Positions 7,028 through 30,376 of a stretch of 64,000 nt of DNA are shown here, in pieces. Location of the stretch: contig NC_014654.1 of assembly GCF_000166415.1 (NCBI RefSeq), positions 1,984,001 to 2,048,000 of the forward strand. The letters are read 5' to 3'. The notes beneath the pieces were generated by a model, which was not told the DNA's origin, did not search any database, and saw nothing but the letters and a program-made list of their open reading frames with translations. Every line of letters starts with the position of its first letter. The first letter of the stretch is position 1. The translations under genes were made by a program, and so were the position numbers. The stretch is from Halanaerobium hydrogeniformans. Lineage in GTDB: Bacteria; Bacillota; Halanaerobiia; Halanaerobiales; Halanaerobiaceae.

Positions 7028-7981
7028 TTAACTACCTAATCTTTTTTCACTAAATTCATCGATAAGTTCTAGGACTTCATCTAATCTTGCCAGTTTTCTT
7101 AGCCATTCAGCAGGAATATCAGAATATCCATAATGAATTCCTGCCAGTCCACCTGTTACTGCTGCGACAGTATCCGTATCTTCACCTAGATTTACAGCTT
7201 TCAATACAGCATAGCTGTATGAATCAGTATTTAAGAGCACCCAGAATGCTGCTTCAAGTGTATCAACAACATAGCCTGTTGATTTGATCTCATTTTCGTT
7301 ATAGTATTTAATATTTCCAGCCAAAATTCTTTTATAATATTTCAATTCTTTTTTATATGCTTCATCTTGAATAAAATCTTTTAAATGTTCTACTGTTTCT
7401 TGATAGGCATTTTTAAGCTCAGCACCCTCAATTATTCGAATAGCAAAATCAATATAAATATAACATCCCAAAATTGAACGAGGATGACTGTGGGTTAAAG
7501 AAGTGACTTCTTTTGTTTTATTAAATCTCTCTTCATTATCCGCATCTAAAAGATAAAATGCCAGTGGTAAAATTCGCATTAAAGCTCCATTCCCATTATC
7601 TCTTTCTCCACCAGCACCTGCCCTTGTTGGAGACTGACCAGCTTTAAGCCTTGATATAGATTCCCGAGTAGAGTTCCCTACATCAAAGGTTCTACCCCTA
7701 GCTGTCCAATAAGCATCATAAAGCCAGCTGACAAATTTATCGGCCTGGTCTTGAAGATCATATCCATTTATAAGTGATTCCAAAAGACAGAGAGTTAAAG
7801 AACTATCATCAGACCATGTACCAGGCGGCTGATAATAGGTTCCATAACCCCGCATTTTTTGAACAGGATCTTTTTTTAATTCTTCCCGGCTCTTAAATTC
7901 CACAGGCACACCCAGAGCATCAGCAGTTAAATGAACAATTATTCCAGCCTTAAGTTTTTCTTTAATCTTTCTAGCACTCAT
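7028..7981 (-). CDS. ADP-ribosylglycohydrolase (DraG/ARH family)
   Basis: A 317-residue all-helical hydrolase. The dinuclear metal-site motifs are present: ADALGVPVEF at the start, TWSDDSSLTLCLLESL (residues about 56-71), GNGALMRILPLA, and NLGEDTDTVAAVTGGLAGIHYG near residue 270. DraG/ARH enzymes release ADP-ribose from proteins or nucleic acids, or act on small ADP-ribosyl compounds. No DraT transferase, nitrogenase or toxin partner is in the window, so the substrate is unknown. The gene is 26 bases after a small membrane protein gene and may be co-transcribed with it and the acetyltransferase upstream. Confidence 0.9.
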   Translation of the reverse strand: MSARKIKEKLKAGIIVHLTADALGVPVEFKSREELKKDPVQKMRGYGTYYQPPGTWSDDSSLTLCLLESLINGYDLQDQADKFVSWLYDAYWTARGRTFDVGNSTRESISRLKAGQSPTRAGAGGERDNGNGALMRILPLAFYLLDADNEERFNKTKEVTSLTHSHPRSILGCYIYIDFAIRIIEGAELKNAYQETVEHLKDFIQDEAYKKELKYYKRILAGNIKYYNENEIKSTGYVVDTLEAAFWVLLNTDSYSYAVLKAVNLGEDTDTVAAVTGGLAGIHYGYSDIPAEWLRKLARLDEVLELIDEFSEKRLGS

Positions 7982-8006
7982 TTTTTCACCTTCTTAATTA
8001 TTAGCT

Positions 8007-8330
8007 TTATTGATAACGCCTGACTACTGCAGCAATAATGACCCCATAAATAATACCAGCTAAAAATGAAACTAAATCTGTCATACCAGTTGATAGATAA
8101 AAAGCTAAAGAAACCATTAAACCGAGCAGCCCACCTTTAATCAATCCCTGGCTACCTGCTTCGATTTTAGTCAGACCGATCAAAAATCCCATGAGCAACC
8201 TATTATACCAGAGTGCAAAAAGGTATAATTCATTTCCACTAAAACCCTGTCTGATACTTCCCCCAATTATACAGATGATTCCCAGGAGTGCTCCACTAAT
8301 GATTGAGATTTGCAATTTTTTATTAAACAT
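8007..8330 (-). CDS. Small multi-pass membrane protein, unknown
   Basis: A 107-residue hydrophobic protein with about three or four membrane segments (residues 8-27, 38-52, 65-82, 86-102), glycine-rich in the middle (GLIKGGLLGLMV) and ending in a basic tail RRYQ. I do not recognise the family. It sits between the acetyltransferase gene (24 bases upstream) and the ADP-ribosylglycohydrolase gene (25 bases downstream), and the spacing suggests one transcript. A SD-like GAGGAG precedes the ATG. Confidence 0.65.
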   Translation of the reverse strand: MFNKKLQISIISGALLGIICIIGGSIRQGFSGNELYLFALWYNRLLMGFLIGLTKIEAGSQGLIKGGLLGLMVSLAFYLSTGMTDLVSFLAGIIYGVIIAAVVRRYQ

Positions 8331-20873: not shown

Positions 20874-22216
20874 AAAAATTTAGTAGTGTACAATAAGTTG
20901 TGTAAATAGATTTTTTTCAATAAAAAAAGAGGAATCCTTCTTTGAATGGTTGAAATATTTATTAGCGAAATAAACTCAACCCAAAGGAGGACTCCTCATG
21001 AACAGTATACCCGAAAAAAACAGTGATGGTCAAGTTGAATTTCACGATTTAATCATTGAACTCATCAAAAATTTTCTCGAGAATTTCCTCAAGGCTGAAT
21101 TAACTGAATTTCTAAACTATGAAAAACATGAATACTCAGGTAGAAACTCTGGCAATAGTCGTAATGGATCTTATCTTCGTGATTTCTTAACTCAGTTTGG
21201 CAGTATTAAAGGCTTAAATGTTCCTAGAGATAGAAATGGTGAATTCCAAACTGAACTATTCCAACCATATAAACGCTATGATAACTGGCTTGAAGAAGCT
21301 ATAATAAACATGTATGCTAATGGCCTTTCCACCCGCTATGTAGCTGATTGGATAGAGCAGATGTATGGACAAAAATATAGCCCTACTACTATTAGTAATC
21401 TAACTAATGTTGCTCTTGAAGAGGTTAAAAAGTGGAAAGAAAGACCACTTCAAAAACGGTACAGCGTTATTTTTATTGATGGCATGAGCATAAAAGTCAG
21501 ACGAGATACTGTTGCAAATGAATCTGTATATATTATCATTGGTATCAATGAAGACGGCTATCGTGAAATACTTGATTTCTACATTGGTGCAACTGAATCT
21601 GCTGCTTTATGGGAAGAAGTACTAAGTAATTTAAAAGAACGCGGAGTCCAGGAAGTCCTACTAGGTGTTATAGATGGACTCCCAGGACTTAAAGATTCTT
21701 TTCTAAAAGTATTCCCTAAAGCGGATGTGCAGCGTTGTATAGTTCATAAAGTGCGTAATACAATAGTCAAAGTTAGAAAAAAAGATACTGATGAAATCGT
21801 TAAAGATTTAAAAAAGATCTATAGATCTCCCAGCAGAGAGTTTGCAGAAAAAGCTTTAGAAGAATTTGATTTTAAATGGAGTAAAATCTATCCTAAAGTT
21901 ACTCAAAGCTGGTACGTAGATAAAGATGAACTATTAACATTTTATAAATATCCAGAAAGCATACATAAAGCCATATACACAACAAACTGGATTGAAAGAG
22001 CCAATAAAGAAATCAAAAAAAGATTAAAGCCTATGAATAGTTTGCCTAATGTACAAGCAGCTGAAAAAATAATTTATTTAAAGATTATTGAGTACAACTC
22101 AAAATGGTCTGATAGAAAGATGAGAGGATTTTTAGCTGCAAAAGATCAGCTCCATCAACTATTTAAAGAACGATACTGATTTATTTACACAAGATTCTTG
22201 ACGTTATCCAAAATTT
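20874..22216 (+). mobile_element. IS256-family insertion sequence (about 20882-22208)
   Basis: The right end, read inward, is GATAACGTCAAGAATC followed by TTGTGTAAATAAAT, close to the known GATAAAGTC...TTGTGTAAAA end of IS256. The left end has AAGTTGTGTAAATAGAT at the same distance from the boundary but its outer 16 bases are poorly conserved. Flanking octamers AAAAATTT (20874-20881) and CAAAATTT (22209-22216) differ by one base and fit the 8-bp target duplication of the family. Confidence 0.8.
20998..22179 (+). CDS. IS256-family (Mutator-type) transposase
   Basis: A 393-residue transposase of normal length. Landmarks are RNGSYLRDFLTQFG, the first Asp in VIFIDGMSIKVR, the second in GVIDGLPGLKDSFLKVFPKADVQRCIVHKVRN (in pieces), and Glu in YTTNWIERANKEIKKRLKPMN. 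These form the DDE site of Mutator-type enzymes. The ATG at 20998 has AAAGGAGG eight bases upstream. The frame is intact, so the element may still move. Confidence 0.95.
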   Translation: MNSIPEKNSDGQVEFHDLIIELIKNFLENFLKAELTEFLNYEKHEYSGRNSGNSRNGSYLRDFLTQFGSIKGLNVPRDRNGEFQTELFQPYKRYDNWLEEAIINMYANGLSTRYVADWIEQMYGQKYSPTTISNLTNVALEEVKKWKERPLQKRYSVIFIDGMSIKVRRDTVANESVYIIIGINEDGYREILDFYIGATESAALWEEVLSNLKERGVQEVLLGVIDGLPGLKDSFLKVFPKADVQRCIVHKVRNTIVKVRKKDTDEIVKDLKKIYRSPSREFAEKALEEFDFKWSKIYPKVTQSWYVDKDELLTFYKYPESIHKAIYTTNWIERANKEIKKRLKPMNSLPNVQAAEKIIYLKIIEYNSKWSDRKMRGFLAAKDQLHQLFKERY

Positions 22217-24174: not shown

Positions 24175-24320
24175 TAATTCCACTTTTATGATCAGGGGCT
24201 TGTATTTCAGCCCCTGACTTGTAGTGGAAAAGATTTAATAATCTCTGCTAAGAGATTATTATATTTTTATAAAATTGTTTTTCCACAACAATTTAAATTT
24301 ATTAAATCTGCTTCCACTAC
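24175..24320 (-). repeat. Structured element copy A, downstream of csgG
   Basis: The element has a hairpin CAGGGGC/GCCCCTG (24193-24216) and then GTAGTGGAAAAG (24221-24232). Bases 24221-24240 pair with 24300-24320 (TATTAAATCT and TTCCACTAC arms, one 2-base mismatch), closing over two inner hairpins (24237-24260 and 24272-24294). The closing stem includes the stop codon of the last csgG. A second copy of the core, same orientation, lies at 28881-28951 on the other side of the structural and secretion genes. Confidence 0.6.
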
Positions 24321-25132
24321 ATAATTCCACTTGTACTTAATTTAAACACAGCTTCTTCAAGTAATGTTCTGACTACAAGATTAATTACTTCCTGTTGTCC
24401 CCTACCTGTTTCAAACTCTACAATGTTGTCTCCTATAAAAGAAAATGTGTTGACTCCAACTTTTTTGCCTTCAATTTCTCCTTTTAAACTTTCACCCCAT
24501 ACAACTGTTCCGGTTGTAGAATCAATAACCCTAATATCAATAGCAGTACTTGCAATTGCTTTTTGACGGTTACCTCCTATTGATCCAATAGCAAAACCAA
24601 GACCTCCTGTTTGCATATCAACCTGATACTCAGTAATTGCTCCAGCAATAATATAATCTGCCCCTATAAGCATATCTATTTGAGGACCTTCTCCTTCTTT
24701 AATTCTATCAAGTTCTTTCAAGTTTAATTCTATTGTTATATTAGATAATTGAATTCTGTCTAATATTTTAAACTGTCGAGACCGATGTAAAGCAGTTATT
24801 AACATATCTTCTGCCCCCTGGGTCACTACAGTAGAACGGTTATTACTAAAACGATTATCTTTAAATTGACCTGTCCTATCTTCAATTCTATAAACTGCTA
24901 CAGTAACTCTATCTTTTCTTTCAGGTAACGCTGATAACAACTGGGTGGTGATTGTAACATTAGGTTGAGAAATTTTAATTGTATCAATATTATTTAATAT
25001 TTCTGCTGACTTTTCTTCTAATTGAGATAAAACATTTGTGTCACCTAAAGAACTTGCTGAGACTCTTGGGCTTAAAATCGAAAGGACCATAATTACTATC
25101 AAAACATATCTAATTTTTTTGTAATTTTTCAT
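24317..25132 (-). CDS. csgG: CsgG-like curli secretion pore, paralogue 2
   Basis: A 271-residue protein homologous to CsgG, the outer-membrane pore that exports curlin. Residues 1-26 are a Sec signal with SPI-type cleavage (RVSA/SS) and no lipobox Cys. An N-terminal segment PNVTITTQLLSALP is shared with paralogue 1. CsgG landmarks: VAVYRIEDRTGQF (78-90), GAEDMLITALHRSRQFKILDR (106-126), DYIIAGAITEYQ, TGGLGFAIGSIGG and DIRVIDSTTGTVVW. The loop aligned with the E. coli constriction (Y51, N55, F56) reads DNRFSNNRST, so it is as long as in E. coli but the Phe is Arg. Its ATG directly follows the stop of paralogue 1, indicating translational coupling. Confidence 0.9.
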   Translation of the reverse strand: MKNYKKIRYVLIVIMVLSILSPRVSASSLGDTNVLSQLEEKSAEILNNIDTIKISQPNVTITTQLLSALPERKDRVTVAVYRIEDRTGQFKDNRFSNNRSTVVTQGAEDMLITALHRSRQFKILDRIQLSNITIELNLKELDRIKEGEGPQIDMLIGADYIIAGAITEYQVDMQTGGLGFAIGSIGGNRQKAIASTAIDIRVIDSTTGTVVWGESLKGEIEGKKVGVNTFSFIGDNIVEFETGRGQQEVINLVVRTLLEEAVFKLSTSGIM

Positions 25133-25903
25133 TTACAAACCACCTCTAAAACTATTAGATATATCAAAAACGGCTTCTTCTATTAAAGTGCGTAGTACTA
25201 AATTTATAACTTCTTGCTTACCAGTTCCTGTTTCCAATTCTACAATATTATCTCCAAAAAAGGAAAACATTTGTAAGCCAACTTTTTTACCTTCTACCTC
25301 ACCTTTGAGGCTATCAGCCCAAACAACTTCCCCCGTGGTAATATCTATTACCCTAATATCAATAGCAGTACTTGCAATTGCTTTTTGACGGGTACCTCCA
25401 ATTGCTCCGATAGCAAAACCCAGCCCTCCTGTTTGCATATCAACCTGGTATTCAGTAATTGCTCCTGTTATTATATATTTTGGACCAGACATCTCTCCTA
25501 AAATTGGTCCTTGATCCGGAGCTAAACGGCCTTCAGACTGTAAATTTTGTTCGTTCATAAAACTTCTAAATATAGTTCTATCAATAATACTAAACTGTCT
25601 AGATCTCAATAAAGCAGTAGTTAGCATATCTGCCGCACCTCTGGAAACAACTGAAGAATCCCATGATTGATATTGCCCGGTTTTATCATTAAATTCATAA
25701 ACTGCCACAGGTATTTTAATATCAGTATCAGGTAAAGCAGCCAGCAACTGAGTTGCAGTAGTTACATTAGGTTTACCAGAAAGTATAGACTCAGATGCAT
25801 TTAAAATCTCTTGAAAATCTTCTGCAGCAGTATTTCCTATAAAAACAAAGCAAGTTAAAATCAAAAATAATAATACTACCTTCTGAACCAATTTTCTTTT
25901 CAT
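25133..25903 (-). CDS. csgG: CsgG-like curli secretion pore, paralogue 1
   Basis: A 256-residue CsgG homologue. Signal peptide 1-27 (NTAA/ED); a Cys at residue 18 sits in LILTCF, a poor lipobox. Core motifs: VAVYEFNDKTGQY (66-78), GAADMLTTALLRSRQFSIIDR (89-109), KYIITGAITEYQVDMQTGGLGFAIGAIGG (in pieces) and IDIRVIDITTGEVVWADSLKGE. The loop matching the E. coli pore constriction is about 4-5 residues shorter (SWDSSVVS), lacking the Asn-Phe pair. Two similar but not equal CsgG genes in tandem suggest either a mixed ring or two pores. SD GGAGGGGG precedes the ATG. Outer-membrane location follows from the family. Confidence 0.92.
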   Translation of the reverse strand: MKRKLVQKVVLLFLILTCFVFIGNTAAEDFQEILNASESILSGKPNVTTATQLLAALPDTDIKIPVAVYEFNDKTGQYQSWDSSVVSRGAADMLTTALLRSRQFSIIDRTIFRSFMNEQNLQSEGRLAPDQGPILGEMSGPKYIITGAITEYQVDMQTGGLGFAIGAIGGTRQKAIASTAIDIRVIDITTGEVVWADSLKGEVEGKKVGLQMFSFFGDNIVELETGTGKQEVINLVLRTLIEEAVFDISNSFRGGL

Positions 25904-25938: not shown

Positions 25939-26370
25939 CTAAAACTCAATATCATTATAATCATCCATAAATGAATTGTAAGTTAAAGTAGTTTTGTCTC
26001 CAGTAATTCTATCTTCAATAGTTACAATAACTTCCCCGTCTAATCCTTCGGTAATGTTTATAATTAAATCTCCTACCCTTAAGTCCTCAATTTCTTTGAA
26101 TTCTTCTTCATTTAATAACTGTCTTATTATACTTCGCTGAACTGAGGATAATAACCTTTGTTCTAAACTTGCTCTAAACCTTTCATAACTGCTTATATCT
26201 TCAGTAATCATACCCGCTTGTTTTTCTGCTATATTAATTGCAACCTGCCTGGCATTTGGGTTGTTAAAATACTGAAAATCCCAACTCATAGTATAATTAG
26301 CAGCTTGAGAAACACCGGAAAGAAAGAAAAATATGCAAATTGTTATTACCACTACAAATAATTTTTTCAT
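25939..26370 (-). CDS. csgF: CsgF-like curli assembly factor
   Basis: A 143-residue exported protein. After the signal (VSQA/AN) the mature N-terminus reads NYTMSWDFQYFNNPNA, matching the TMTFQFRNPNFGG start of CsgF, the part that plugs into the CsgG channel. The C-terminal VGDLIINITEGLDGEVIVTIEDRITGDKTTLTYNSF (in pieces) and final NDIEF match CsgF's [21 protein letters not shown]...STDF. I chose the ATG at 26370 since GAGGT lies 9 bases upstream; the ATG at 26391 has no site. In curli systems CsgF links the pore to the surface nucleator. It precedes csgG, as expected for a joint complex. Confidence 0.82.
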   Translation of the reverse strand: MKKLFVVVITICIFFFLSGVSQAANYTMSWDFQYFNNPNARQVAINIAEKQAGMITEDISSYERFRASLEQRLLSSVQRSIIRQLLNEEEFKEIEDLRVGDLIINITEGLDGEVIVTIEDRITGDKTTLTYNSFMDDYNDIEF

Positions 26371-26399
26371 TATAATTGACCTCACTTTCATTTTTATTA

Positions 26400-26921
26400 T
26401 TAAAACTTAATTTGAAAGCCTGCTACTGCAGCAACATTGCTATCTTCTGAACTTAACTCTTCATCTATATATTTAGCTTCTATAAAAAAATTCTCCGAAA
26501 CATCAGTGCCAAGGAAAACTTGATAATTAGCTTTTCCAGTAACTCCGACTCCTGCTCCAATATATGGTGTAAGCATTTGATATTCAAGTGGCGAAAATTT
26601 AACTCCAATAAATGCATCTCCATTTGACTTTGCTCTATAATATATGCCTTCAAACATGATACTTAAACCAGAAACCGGAACATCTACTCCCAAACGCAAA
26701 CCAGGATTAACTTCATTCCCATTTATTTTATAATTCGTAAAAAATACTGCCAATGAATTATGGTTTGCATAAGTTTTTTCTTCTTCCATCTGTCTTTGTA
26801 AATTTTGAGATGCTTCTATTAATCTAATTCTTTCTTCCATACTCGTTTGCGCAGAAACTGAACTACTTATTAACAAAATGATCAGTATCCCAAATAATAA
26901 AATAATAAATTTTTTTTCCAC
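26400..26921 (-). CDS. Small outer-membrane beta-barrel-like protein of the curli cluster
   Basis: A 173-residue protein: signal peptide (SVSA/QT), a short helical part (MEERIRLIEASQNLQRQMEEEK, in pieces), then alternating beta-strand-like segments such as GLRLGVDVPVSGLSIMFEGIYYR and LTPYIGAGVGVTG, ending in AGFQIKF. The terminal Phe is typical of proteins inserted by the BAM machinery. I chose the GTG at 26921 because GGGAGG is 9 bases upstream and runs into the ATG at 26930. It lies between the curlin genes and csgF, 29 bases before the latter, so it is likely a cluster-specific accessory protein. I do not recognise a named family. Confidence 0.65.
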   Translation of the reverse strand: MEKKFIILLFGILIILLISSSVSAQTSMEERIRLIEASQNLQRQMEEEKTYANHNSLAVFFTNYKINGNEVNPGLRLGVDVPVSGLSIMFEGIYYRAKSNGDAFIGVKFSPLEYQMLTPYIGAGVGVTGKANYQVFLGTDVSENFFIEAKYIDEELSSEDSNVAAVAGFQIKF

Positions 26922-26988
26922 TAAAATCATCCTCCCATTTTTTATATCCGTTCAGCCGATCTATTTTTTAAATATAATTTAAAAATTT

Positions 26989-27025
26989 TATAAAAAGCCG
27001 TTTTGATAAAAATAGTCAAAACGGC
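26989..27025 (-). terminator. Intercistronic terminator after the first-described curlin (27055-27684)
   Basis: GCCGTTTTGA (26997-27006) pairs perfectly with TCAAAACGGC (27016-27025); minus-strand tail TTTTTATAAAATTTTT. It separates the curlin genes from the secretion genes, so those need read-through or their own promoter. Confidence 0.88.
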
Positions 27026-27054
27026 CTTAAATAAAATAAACAGATTTTTTGACC

Positions 27055-27684
27055 TTAAAACTGAACTTCCAATTTAAGATCATGACCATCTTGAATAATG
27101 ATAGCGTTTTTATCATTACCCCCTTGAAGGATCAAAGCCATATTATTTGATCCATATTGAGAGATAGAAGCGGTATGTCCATCACCAAATTGACCGATAC
27201 CAGCCCATTGCTTAAAACCATTCTGATAAATATTTGCCTGATTGTCATTTCCATATTGAAGAATCCCGGCAAAGTTAAAATCTCCATATTGGTCAAGATT
27301 CGAAGTATTATTATCACCTTTCTGATAAATACCGGCCCAATTCCAATATCCATGTTGATCAATACACCCATAATTTTCTTCACCGTTCTGGATTATAAAG
27401 GCTTTTGGAGTAAATTCATACCAAAAATCATAGTCCCCGTTTCCACCATTATTTCCATTATCATCTCCAATAAAGGGATTCAAATTGCCAGGGAATTCAC
27501 CAGGACCGGGAAAAGGAAAACCAGGACCTCCACCAGGACCACCTTCTATACCGGGAGGTCTTTCATCTACTAATCCGGGTGGACCTCCTCCACCAGGAGG
27601 GCCTTGAGCAAAAACTCCTATAGAAGTAATGAAAATCATTAGAATCATAACTGTAAAAACAATTGTTTTTTTATAGTCCACCAT
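27055..27684 (-). CDS. Curlin-repeat amyloid protein with Gly/Pro-rich N-terminus
   Basis: A 209-residue exported protein. Signal 1-26 (VFA/QG); residues 27-70 are Gly/Pro-rich; from about 95 come five 22-residue curlin repeats, for example WAGIYQKGDNNTSNLDQYGD, FAGILQYGNDNQANIYQNGF and WAGIGQFGDGHTASISQYGS. They follow the CsgA/CsgB pattern x-x-I-x-Q-x-G-x-x-N-x-A-x-I-x-Q-x-G. Gln and Asn/Gly rungs are conserved. A Cys at residue 107 in the first repeat is unusual for curlins. It could be major subunit or nucleator; the Gly/Pro segment may target or tether it. SD AAGGTGG precedes the ATG, and terminators lie on both sides. Confidence 0.88.
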   Translation of the reverse strand: MVDYKKTIVFTVMILMIFITSIGVFAQGPPGGGGPPGLVDERPPGIEGGPGGGPGFPFPGPGEFPGNLNPFIGDDNGNNGGNGDYDFWYEFTPKAFIIQNGEENYGCIDQHGYWNWAGIYQKGDNNTSNLDQYGDFNFAGILQYGNDNQANIYQNGFKQWAGIGQFGDGHTASISQYGSNNMALILQGGNDKNAIIIQDGHDLKLEVQF

Positions 27685-27759: not shown

Positions 27760-28575
27760 TTAATTGCTCTGATTTATTATACCTAAATTACTATTTCCAT
27801 TTTGGCTAATAAAAGCGGAAAGGCCATCTGCATTCTGATGAATTTCTGCATCGTTCCAGTTACCTACCTGCATGACATTAGCTAAATTATCGTAGCCTCT
27901 TTGCTCAACAAATGTTCCGTTACGGTCGCCATCTTGAGAAACTGTTGCTATTTGGCCTTCACCAAACTGCTCTACTAAAACATAGTTGAGCTCTCCACCC
28001 AATTGATCAACTGTTACAGAATGGAAATCTCCATCTTGTCTGGTTCTAATTCTATTTAGATATCCGTATTGAGTTATATCAGCAAATGAACCTTCTCCAC
28101 CAAACTGGCTGACTCTAACAAAACTTCTATCTGCATCCTGATATATAAAAGCTTCCATTAAATCGCCATTTTGCCCTACACCAGCATAGTTTAATTCACC
28201 TTTTTGATCAATATCAGCTAAGTTAAATTCGCCGCGTTGATTAACTTCGCCTTCATTGTAGTATCCGTCCTGCATTATATAAGCTTCATTCATATAACTA
28301 CCAGCTTCAGCAGGTGGAGTAAACTGAAAATCTATGCCCTGGCCGATATGAGCCCAGTTGTCACCAATTTGAGTAATTTCAGCAAGATCAAAATTGCCTT
28401 CCTGAATTATTTCTGCATTATAACCAGCATAAGGTACATTACCGAAATAGTCATTGGTCAGAGTATACCAAGGTTGATTATTAAAATTATCACCATCAAG
28501 ATAACTAGCAGCTACACCTAAGCTCATGCTTAATACAAAAGCTAAAACTAGAGCCATTATTAATAATTTTCTCAT
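27760..28575 (-). CDS. Curlin-repeat amyloid protein, nine to ten repeats
   Basis: A 271-residue exported protein, first of the curli structural genes. Signal 1-23 (GVAA/SY), a 30-residue aromatic-rich linker, then nine to ten curlin repeats of about 22 residues from residue 52 on, such as NEGEVNQRGEFNLADIDQKG, YAGVGQNGDLMEAFIYQDAD and DAEIHQNADGLSAFISQNGN. The second repeat is broken by an 11-residue insertion (DFQFTPPAEAG). Net charge is clearly acidic, unlike its partner with the Gly/Pro region. The longer repeat array makes it the better candidate for the main fibre subunit, which is inference. TGAGGAGTG is 6 bases before the ATG. Confidence 0.9.
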   Translation of the reverse strand: MRKLLIMALVLAFVLSMSLGVAASYLDGDNFNNQPWYTLTNDYFGNVPYAGYNAEIIQEGNFDLAEITQIGDNWAHIGQGIDFQFTPPAEAGSYMNEAYIMQDGYYNEGEVNQRGEFNLADIDQKGELNYAGVGQNGDLMEAFIYQDADRSFVRVSQFGGEGSFADITQYGYLNRIRTRQDGDFHSVTVDQLGGELNYVLVEQFGEGQIATVSQDGDRNGTFVEQRGYDNLANVMQVGNWNDAEIHQNADGLSAFISQNGNSNLGIINQSN

Positions 28576-29139: not shown

Positions 29140-30273
29140 TTAATTAATTTCTGTTATGTCTATACTTGGTTTTTTTAACAAATTTAGTTCCTCACAAAAA
29201 TTATTAAATCTTTGCATGATTATTCCACTATTGACAAGGCTCATCTCATGTAAAATTAAATAGATTTTGTCATTACCAAAAGATAAGATATCACCAGATC
29301 TGAGCATTGCAGCCATTTTTTCAGCTGCTTTTTCAACTGGAACAGTTAATTTACTGCCATTGAAATCAACAGACATTAAAATAAATTCTTTTTTTAATCT
29401 TTTTACCTGTCTTAATTCAAGTTCATATATTTTTTCGAATATATCAAAATCACAAATCATCGCTCCAGAATTAAAATCTTGTTTGTTATTTAGATTAAAT
29501 TGAACCTGTTGAGTTAAATCTCTACTCAATTTTATTCTGTGATATACATTATTTAACTCCTGGCCGGGAAGCAAATCCAATTCTTCTTTTAATATTCTCT
29601 CACACTTTTTATAACTATTTATAGCTTCTGCTATCCTACCAAGTTTTACAAGTGCTTTAATATAGAGTAAATAAAAGTTTTCTCGATAAGGATCATATTC
29701 TATCCCTTTATGCAGATAGTTTACTGTATCCCGATATTTTTCTTCTTTAAATAGCTTATCAGTTAATACTTCAATTAAATTTAAGTAATACTCTCGTAAC
29801 TCTTCCCGATAGATTTCAAGCCAGTCTTCATATTTTAAATTGCTGAAAAAATCTCCTCTGTATAAAACAAATAAATCTTTTAAACTTTCAAGCTTAATTT
29901 CCTCGCCTTTAAGTAGTTTATCTATTTCGCTCTCAAAACATTCCCAATCTGTCCATATTTCATAATTTTTATTTATGGTATAACTGCCGGTTACTGATTC
30001 TATAATATCCTTCGGAACCCCATCTTTAGTAAGCGACCTTCTCAACAAATAAATTGTATTATATAATTTTGTTTTCCCATCTTCTAAATCTGATTCAGGC
30101 CAGAAAACATCTACCAGCTCTTCAACACTAACATTGCGTTTCCACTCTAAAGCCAGATACATCAACAAATACATAGCCCTTTTGGAGACCCAATTACTAC
30201 CATCAACCTGTTTTCCTCCATACTCGAGATAAAAAGAACCCAAACCATAAAAACAAAGTTTTCCACTACTCAT
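29140..30273 (-). CDS. SARP/BTAD-type transcriptional regulator with degenerate GGDEF-like C-terminus
   Basis: A 377-residue regulator. Residues about 1-95 form an OmpR-like winged helix (KRAMYLLMYLALEWKRNVSVEELVDVFWPES, LYNTIYLLRRSL). Residues about 100-245 are a BTAD helical repeat domain (LYRGDFFSNLKYEDWLEIYREELREYYLNLIEVL, PYRENFYLLYIKALVKLGRIAEAINSYKKCERILKEEL, in pieces). The last 90 residues resemble a GGDEF fold: FILMSVDFNG, then MLRSGDILSFGNDKIYLIL where active cyclases have GGDEF. It cannot be a cyclase; nucleotide sensing is possible but unproved. I chose the ATG at 30273 with GGGGGTG upstream over TTG 30288. It is upstream of the curlin genes on the same strand and is the obvious candidate controller, taking the place of CsgD. 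Confidence 0.8.
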   Translation of the reverse strand: MSSGKLCFYGLGSFYLEYGGKQVDGSNWVSKRAMYLLMYLALEWKRNVSVEELVDVFWPESDLEDGKTKLYNTIYLLRRSLTKDGVPKDIIESVTGSYTINKNYEIWTDWECFESEIDKLLKGEEIKLESLKDLFVLYRGDFFSNLKYEDWLEIYREELREYYLNLIEVLTDKLFKEEKYRDTVNYLHKGIEYDPYRENFYLLYIKALVKLGRIAEAINSYKKCERILKEELDLLPGQELNNVYHRIKLSRDLTQQVQFNLNNKQDFNSGAMICDFDIFEKIYELELRQVKRLKKEFILMSVDFNGSKLTVPVEKAAEKMAAMLRSGDILSFGNDKIYLILHEMSLVNSGIIMQRFNNFCEELNLLKKPSIDITEIN

Positions 30274-30376
30274 TTCTAACACCCCCAAAATTAAGACTTT
30301 CCCATTTCACAACTTTTATATTTGGGGCACTTTGTTTTAAAATTTTTATATAAAAACAAAGGTGTCCATTATTTTT

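Follow-up and report, generated by a model that had tools for sequence, protein, structure and literature searches.

A tandem pair of csgG genes with unlike constriction loops in the curli locus of Halanaerobium hydrogeniformans

Background

The curli pore protein of Escherichia coli, CsgG, is a lipoprotein that spans the outer membrane as a nonameric ring of 36 strands, and both CsgG and the CsgG:CsgF complex serve as sequencing nanopores. According to the available portions of two accounts, each CsgF of E. coli contacts two adjacent CsgG subunits and its loop region carries a second constriction (PMC7304575), while residues G32 and G33 did not vary among 35 CsgF sequences and the substitution F31D abolished CsgG binding (PMC12311626). 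The accessible text of Dueholm et al. 2012 (PMC3521004) describes a single curli locus from Firmicutes, lacking csgC, csgD and csgE, and the curli-bearing Firmicutes are named as Halanaerobium in the excerpt available from another source (PMC4551309). A Halanaerobium curli locus has been known since 2012. A search of the open-licence literature found no paper on this csgG pair.

The locus lies within a stretch of 64,000 nucleotides from H. hydrogeniformans (NC_014654.1, positions 1,984,001 to 2,048,000), referred to as the window; the genome is a single contig of 2,613,117 bases. A first-pass annotation, made from the letters of the window alone, had drawn attention to two adjacent csgG genes that differ in the pore-constriction loop.

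Results

The locus was best explained as the export part of a curli operon (type VIII secretion) of the Halanaerobiales type, in which csgG is present as an old tandem pair. Gene order on the minus strand was BTAD/SARP regulator, two curlin-repeat genes, orfX, csgF, csgG1 and csgG2 (Table 1). The tandem paralogues reported at 24317–25903 proved to be two intact minus-strand reading frames with strong CsgG matches, both to the domain PF03783 (142.8 bits for csgG1, 148.2 for csgG2; cut-off 20.8) and to the solved E. coli CsgG chains in the PDB (E = 2.5e-17 and 5.4e-20, respectively); these were the only CsgG matches in the whole genome. Linkage to CsgF and curlins was evident, since Pfam matches to csgF (34.5 bits) and to both curlins (104.5 and 109.9 bits) fell in the same cluster. 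There were no bases between the TAA of csgG1 and the ATG of csgG2, and a ribosome-binding-like AGAGGTGG was situated within the 3' end of csgG1, ahead of csgG2. The first-pass annotation had taken this coupling of stop and start to suggest equal amounts of the two proteins; the contact is real, but it is not conserved, the gaps at three other tandem loci being 38, 52 and 57 bases.

Since a hairpin followed by a T-run parts the curlin genes from the export genes, the latter (orfX, csgF, csgG1 and csgG2) are probably a lesser transcript than the curlins. A search of Rfam gave no matches, and a scan for sigma-70 promoters was uninformative (26 sites against 22.9 expected). The BTAD/SARP-type regulator, which lies beside curli loci both here and in several relatives, may replace CsgD. 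A Mutator-family transposase (20998–22179, plus strand) was observed about 2 kb past the end of the operon.

Table 1. Positions of features of the curli locus, numbered from the first letter of the window
Feature	Position	Strand	Remarks
csgG1, curli pore subunit	25133..25903	-	256 aa; Sec signal peptide lacking a lipobox; constriction loop of 9 residues, the standard length in the lineage
csgG2, second curli pore subunit	24317..25132	-	271 aa; no lipobox; loop of 14 residues; start ATG directly follows the csgG1 stop
csgG1 constriction-loop codons (YQSWDSSVV)	25646..25672	-	
csgG2 constriction-loop codons (FKDNRFSNNRSTVV)	24824..24865	-	
csgG2 loop repeat, two imperfect 15-bp units	24830..24859 (24845-24859 + 24830-24844)	-	11/15 identical
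Gene-conversion tract, csgG1 side	25352..25465	-	codons 147-184; first transmembrane hairpin
Gene-conversion tract, csgG2 side	24530..24643	-	codons 164-201; model strands 160-174 and 191-204
csgF, lineage type	25939..26391	-	NPNARQV instead of NPx-FGG connecting loop
orfX	26400..26930	-	signal peptide, helix, predicted 8-stranded outer-membrane barrel; conserved across the lineage's curli loci
Curlin-repeat protein	27055..27684	-	4 repeat stretches; Gly/Pro-rich N-terminal region
Curlin-repeat protein	27760..28575	-	7 repeat stretches
Strong hairpin then T-run (terminator or attenuator)	26985..27054	-	between curlin genes and export genes; -21.1 kcal/mol, z -6.0
BTAD/SARP-type regulator	29140..30288	-	upstream; also adjoins several relatives' curli loci

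Loop length was counted between two fixed motifs, TG[QKE] and [TSP][QR][GS]. It was 9 residues in csgG1 (YQSWDSSVV), 14 in csgG2 (FKDNRFSNNRSTVV) and 13 in the E. coli-like form (FKPYPASNFSTAV), so that csgG1 was four residues shorter than E. coli, within the four to five first estimated, and csgG2 one residue longer. Because the flanking motifs are fixed, the difference is no artefact of alignment, and the comparison of loops that the first-pass annotation had proposed as a check revealed no misplacement; the frames are intact, and in a first alignment the loop length of csgG1 was matched to within one residue in 14 of 16 other CsgG sequences. An alignment or annotation error is accordingly so improbable as to be negligible.

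The lineage was represented by 30 CsgG sequences, comprising the window pair and 28 others; L069, from another phylum, was excluded, and contigs retrieved twice were counted once (L046, L048, L049, L054, L055, L058, L059, L061, L063-L065 and L067). Loops were of 9–10 residues in 22 of these, of 12 in six (all from Bacillota MAGs: L050, L052, L056, L057, L062 and L068) and of 14 in two, namely csgG2 and the divergent L045. By contrast, 30 CsgF-linked CsgG sequences were sampled from Pseudomonadota and Bacteroidota, and all 29 with a readable loop had 13 or 14 residues, the Ser being preceded nearly always by F, W, Y or I. Judged from these alignments, a short loop is a mark of the lineage, and csgG1 conforms to it in length, although it carries W-D where the lineage usually has x-G.

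The loop of csgG2, which had been described as full-length, instead appears to be a later insertion. When five residues are removed from it (FKD-NRFSN-NRSTVV), an ordinary 9-residue form is left, and its DNA contains two adjoining 15-base units that agree at 11 of 15 positions, with an offset equal to the length of the insertion; this level of similarity was reached in 6 of 5000 shuffles. A loop of 9 residues was therefore likely lengthened by five through a tandem duplication of 15 bp. Retention from an E. coli-like ancestor was considered and ruled out, as csgG2 falls within the short-loop group and has a short-loop sister, and as the inserted stretch resembles the sequence 15 bases from it. 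Long loops do occur outside, in the Aerophobetes locus L069 and in the divergent L045 (both 14 residues), and recombination from a gene of this kind is a lesser possibility.

The absence of the phenylalanine that narrows the E. coli channel was borne out in both copies. The Tyr51/Asn55/Phe56 constriction was lacking, the csgG1 loop being too short and the csgG2 residue opposite Phe56 being non-aromatic, although the csgG2 loop does hold a Phe further up. For the short loop of csgG1, the counterpart of Tyr51, Asn55 or Phe56 was not fixed, as HMMER placed the gap after 'SWDSS' and MAFFT before W. Loop charges were opposite in sign in three of the four tandem pairs (-1/+2, -2/+1 and +1/-1) and 0/-2 in the fourth; this comparison of four pairs, two of them related, proves nothing.

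Neither copy has a lipobox. The single Cys of csgG1, at position 18, lies inside the hydrophobic core and is preceded by Thr, while csgG2 has no Cys near the N-terminus. The first-pass annotation was correct on this point, but the feature is not special to the pair, since a lipobox was absent from all 30 lineage sequences; on this comparison its absence is a trait of the lineage. A Cys occupied the lipobox place in 30 of 30 CsgF-linked sequences from Pseudomonadota and Bacteroidota, 26 by strict pattern and four by eye (L122, L123, L128 and L145). Loss of the lipobox for want of a Lol carrier was entertained and dropped. LspA was found in the window's genome, and the LolA profile PF03548 matched in none of 38 genomes of the order, most likely through a failure of sensitivity, given that LolA homologues were reported for all the Halanaerobiales genomes examined in PMC5007114. 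Some Halanaerobium CsgG sequences (L036 at 7419-8210, L037-L040 and L042) begin like MEEMIALLL, carrying no positively charged residue ahead of the hydrophobic stretch and having Gly-Gly in place of the Gly-Cys of a lipobox; this is perhaps a lost lipobox.

The connecting loop of CsgF differs too (Table 1). The GG motif of NPx-FGG was absent from the window and from all 24 related loci (one sequence being incomplete). Outside the lineage, a script found it in 25 of 31, and L137 was added by eye; L130, L131, L133 and L134 fail the motif as written (in L130 the GG comes one residue later), L135 gave no ORF, and L137 and L153 were read in the wrong frame. With a short CsgG loop and a CsgF that lacks FGG, both constrictions appear to have been rebuilt in the lineage. 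CsgE (PF10627) was detected in none of the 38 genomes of the order, where an E. coli control was positive and a very divergent cap could escape the profile; this agrees with the Firmicutes locus in the available text of Dueholm et al. 2012 (PMC3521004).

The window and 23 of 24 CsgF-bearing loci contain the gene orfX, the exception being L052, whose contig starts inside csgF. Its structural model (pLDDT 88) comprises a helix and eight strands, and was closest to the OprF N-domain (4rlc, Z = 16.2) and OmpA (1qjp, Z = 14.9); matches by Foldseek were weaker (best E = 7.6e-4). There were no matches among PDB sequences, and only chance matches, to no family, in Pfam. An orfX profile found nothing at the CsgF-linked loci of Pseudomonadota and Bacteroidota within the 1.5 kb or so covered on each side. 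From its model, orfX is predicted to be an 8-stranded outer-membrane barrel; no assessable curli locus of the lineage with a csgF gene lacks it.

Tandem csgG genes occurred at 4 of 22 assessable CsgF-bearing loci (the window, G024, G027 and the MAG contig L051), with direct contact only in the window. The second csgG was absent from the other 18, and from all six assessable loci among the genus's 11 other genomes. The 22 exclude L045 and L066, which lack csgF, and L069, while a second copy was not assessable in L036 and L040. For the first-pass annotation, one copy being absent from close relatives and decayed would have counted against its reading; the absence is confirmed but the decay is not, since csgG2 kept 92 of 100 lineage-conserved sites and csgG1 kept 90 of 100. 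At 607-2867, L066 has a CsgG2-like gene beside a curlin gene, on a contig without csgF or orfX. The MAG contigs L051 (titled Elusimicrobia) and L053 (Nitriliruptoria) carry Halanaerobiales-type curli loci and are probably mis-binned or misnamed.

Phylogenies were estimated with the loop and the conversion tract left out. The second copy grouped with that of G027, a genome from another family of the order (support 99/81), and the first with the first copy of G027, though not firmly (95/68); a sister relationship between the window copies was rejected (p-AU = 0.005). With the tract included, csgG1 was unresolved and csgG2 joined the G027 copy with 93/84 only. A single clade of all second copies was neither supported nor rejected (p = 0.43; the truncated L051 copy was excluded). 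Recent duplication, which the near-identical tract might suggest, was therefore discarded, as the sister pairing fails once the tract is removed. Since the counterparts in G027 group with the window copies, the phylogeny indicates that the pair predates the split of two families of the order, or else moved between them whole.

Between codons 143 and 187 of csgG1, DNA identity between the copies was 0.90, against 0.60 elsewhere, an excess (0.29) that was the largest among 231 pairs (next, 0.10). The best segment at silent sites spanned codons 147–184 (permutation p = 0.0075), and silent codons were identical at 31 of 41 positions in the tract region against 41 of 90 outside (Fisher p = 0.0014, for a region chosen after looking). 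These patterns were interpreted as gene conversion between csgG1 and csgG2, which has homogenised a tract of about 115 bp. The tract corresponds to the first transmembrane hairpin in the single-chain model of csgG2 (mean pLDDT 74.6; best PDB match CsgG 4uv2, E = 4.1e-15). No tract was seen in the first hairpin for the G027 and G024 pairs (p = 0.25 and 0.65), and in the L051 pair the best segment lay elsewhere (codons 103–139, p = 0.013).

Discussion

The sequence-level part of the best explanation is very probably correct: a csgG1 of standard loop length, an old paralogue, a later duplication within its loop, a converted hairpin, and divergence of the loop and of the segment that follows it (csgG1 residues about 103–135). 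What the two proteins do together is less certain. Under the preferred reading, both would cross the inner membrane by Sec, be cut by signal peptidase I and form outer-membrane rings without being lipidated; a single CsgF would serve both as an outer plug, and the two curlins would pass through. CsgG1 and CsgG2 would be co-translated and share one ring in varying proportions, their barrel walls similar and their loops in the lumen different, and CsgG2 may tune an otherwise wide CsgG1 pore by making its constriction narrower and more positively charged. That the two form a mixed ring is a tentative proposition, plausible at somewhat less than even chances. In its favour are the abutting genes with their zero gap and ribosome-binding-like site, one csgF for two csgG genes, loop charges that differ in sign in most tandem pairs, and the age of a pair whose copies are both intact and constrained; the converted tract, moreover, is modelled as the first hairpin, the face through which a subunit has to join the next one. 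Against it, tandem genes often undergo gene conversion, which can be neutral, and other pairs lack it in the hairpin; one csgG suffices for most relatives; and the lone CsgG2-like gene of L066 may form a ring of its own. The E. coli CsgG ring has nine subunits, which makes strict alternation of two kinds impossible. The fuller picture of a heteromeric pore, in which one unlipidated CsgG1/CsgG2 ring has walls kept interchangeable by gene conversion, an uneven constriction due to loop length and charge, both CsgG:CsgF constrictions rebuilt, and the OmpA-like barrel protein as a permanent partner, is rather unlikely to hold as a whole.

Two separate homomeric pores that prefer different curlins or CsgF, with the loop and residues 103–135 setting the choice of substrate, are a possible but doubtful arrangement. 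Within the mature parts, identity between the copies was lowest at about residues 103–135 of csgG1 (windowed values 0.24–0.36), which align around E. coli residues 82–113, and in E. coli a loop at 107–110 helps to bind the N-terminus of CsgA, by the available portion of PMC6957492. The two curlins of the operon have unlike N-termini, Gln119 was kept in all 20 single copies and all four first copies while being lost in three of four second copies, and the CsgG2-like gene of L066 adjoins its own curlin. However, single-csgG loci also have several curlins, so that the numbers of curlin and csgG genes do not go together, and separate pores fit poorly with a single csgF and with barrels kept alike by gene conversion. 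It is unlikely, meanwhile, that csgG2 is a near-redundant extra copy, kept for dosage or heading for loss, with its long loop a tolerated accident. The patchy distribution of second copies, none of them at the assessable loci of the genus's other genomes, and the origin of the insertion by simple duplication are what this would lead one to expect; the lack of decay and an age sufficient for the pair to be common to another family are not.

A whole lineage without a lipobox, with a short CsgG loop and with a CsgF lacking FGG suggests that evolution can replace both constrictions as well as the lipid anchor. Whether CsgG rings can be mixed is a question for which the tandem pair provides a natural example, and orfX may supply a missing component of the curli export machinery of diderm Firmicutes.

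Compared with E. coli CsgG and CsgF (PDB 4uv2, 4uv3, 6l7a and 6si7), the CsgG fold is common over about 200 residues, and csgG adjoins csgF and curlin genes in both. Unlike in E. coli, CsgG here is without a lipobox, its loop is 9 or 14 residues rather than 13 and there is no aromatic at Phe56; CsgF has no FGG loop, CsgE has no match (38 of 38 genomes), and a second csgG and an extra barrel protein are present. That protein, orfX, shares a predicted fold with the 8-stranded barrels of the OmpA/OprF type at a sequence identity of 13%, but differs from them in having a conserved N-terminal helix and no Pfam family, and was found here only with these curli loci. The single-csgG loci of Halanaerobiales (L032, L034, L035, L037-L039 and L041-L043) have the same curlins, orfX, csgF and short-loop csgG without lipobox; they differ in having one csgG instead of two, and none has a 14-residue loop. 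The Halanaerobium curli of Dueholm et al. 2012 probably came from this or a near genome and show the same absence of csgC, csgD and csgE, while the accessible text of that paper makes no mention of two csgG genes, the loop, the lipobox, the change in CsgF or orfX (PMC3521004).
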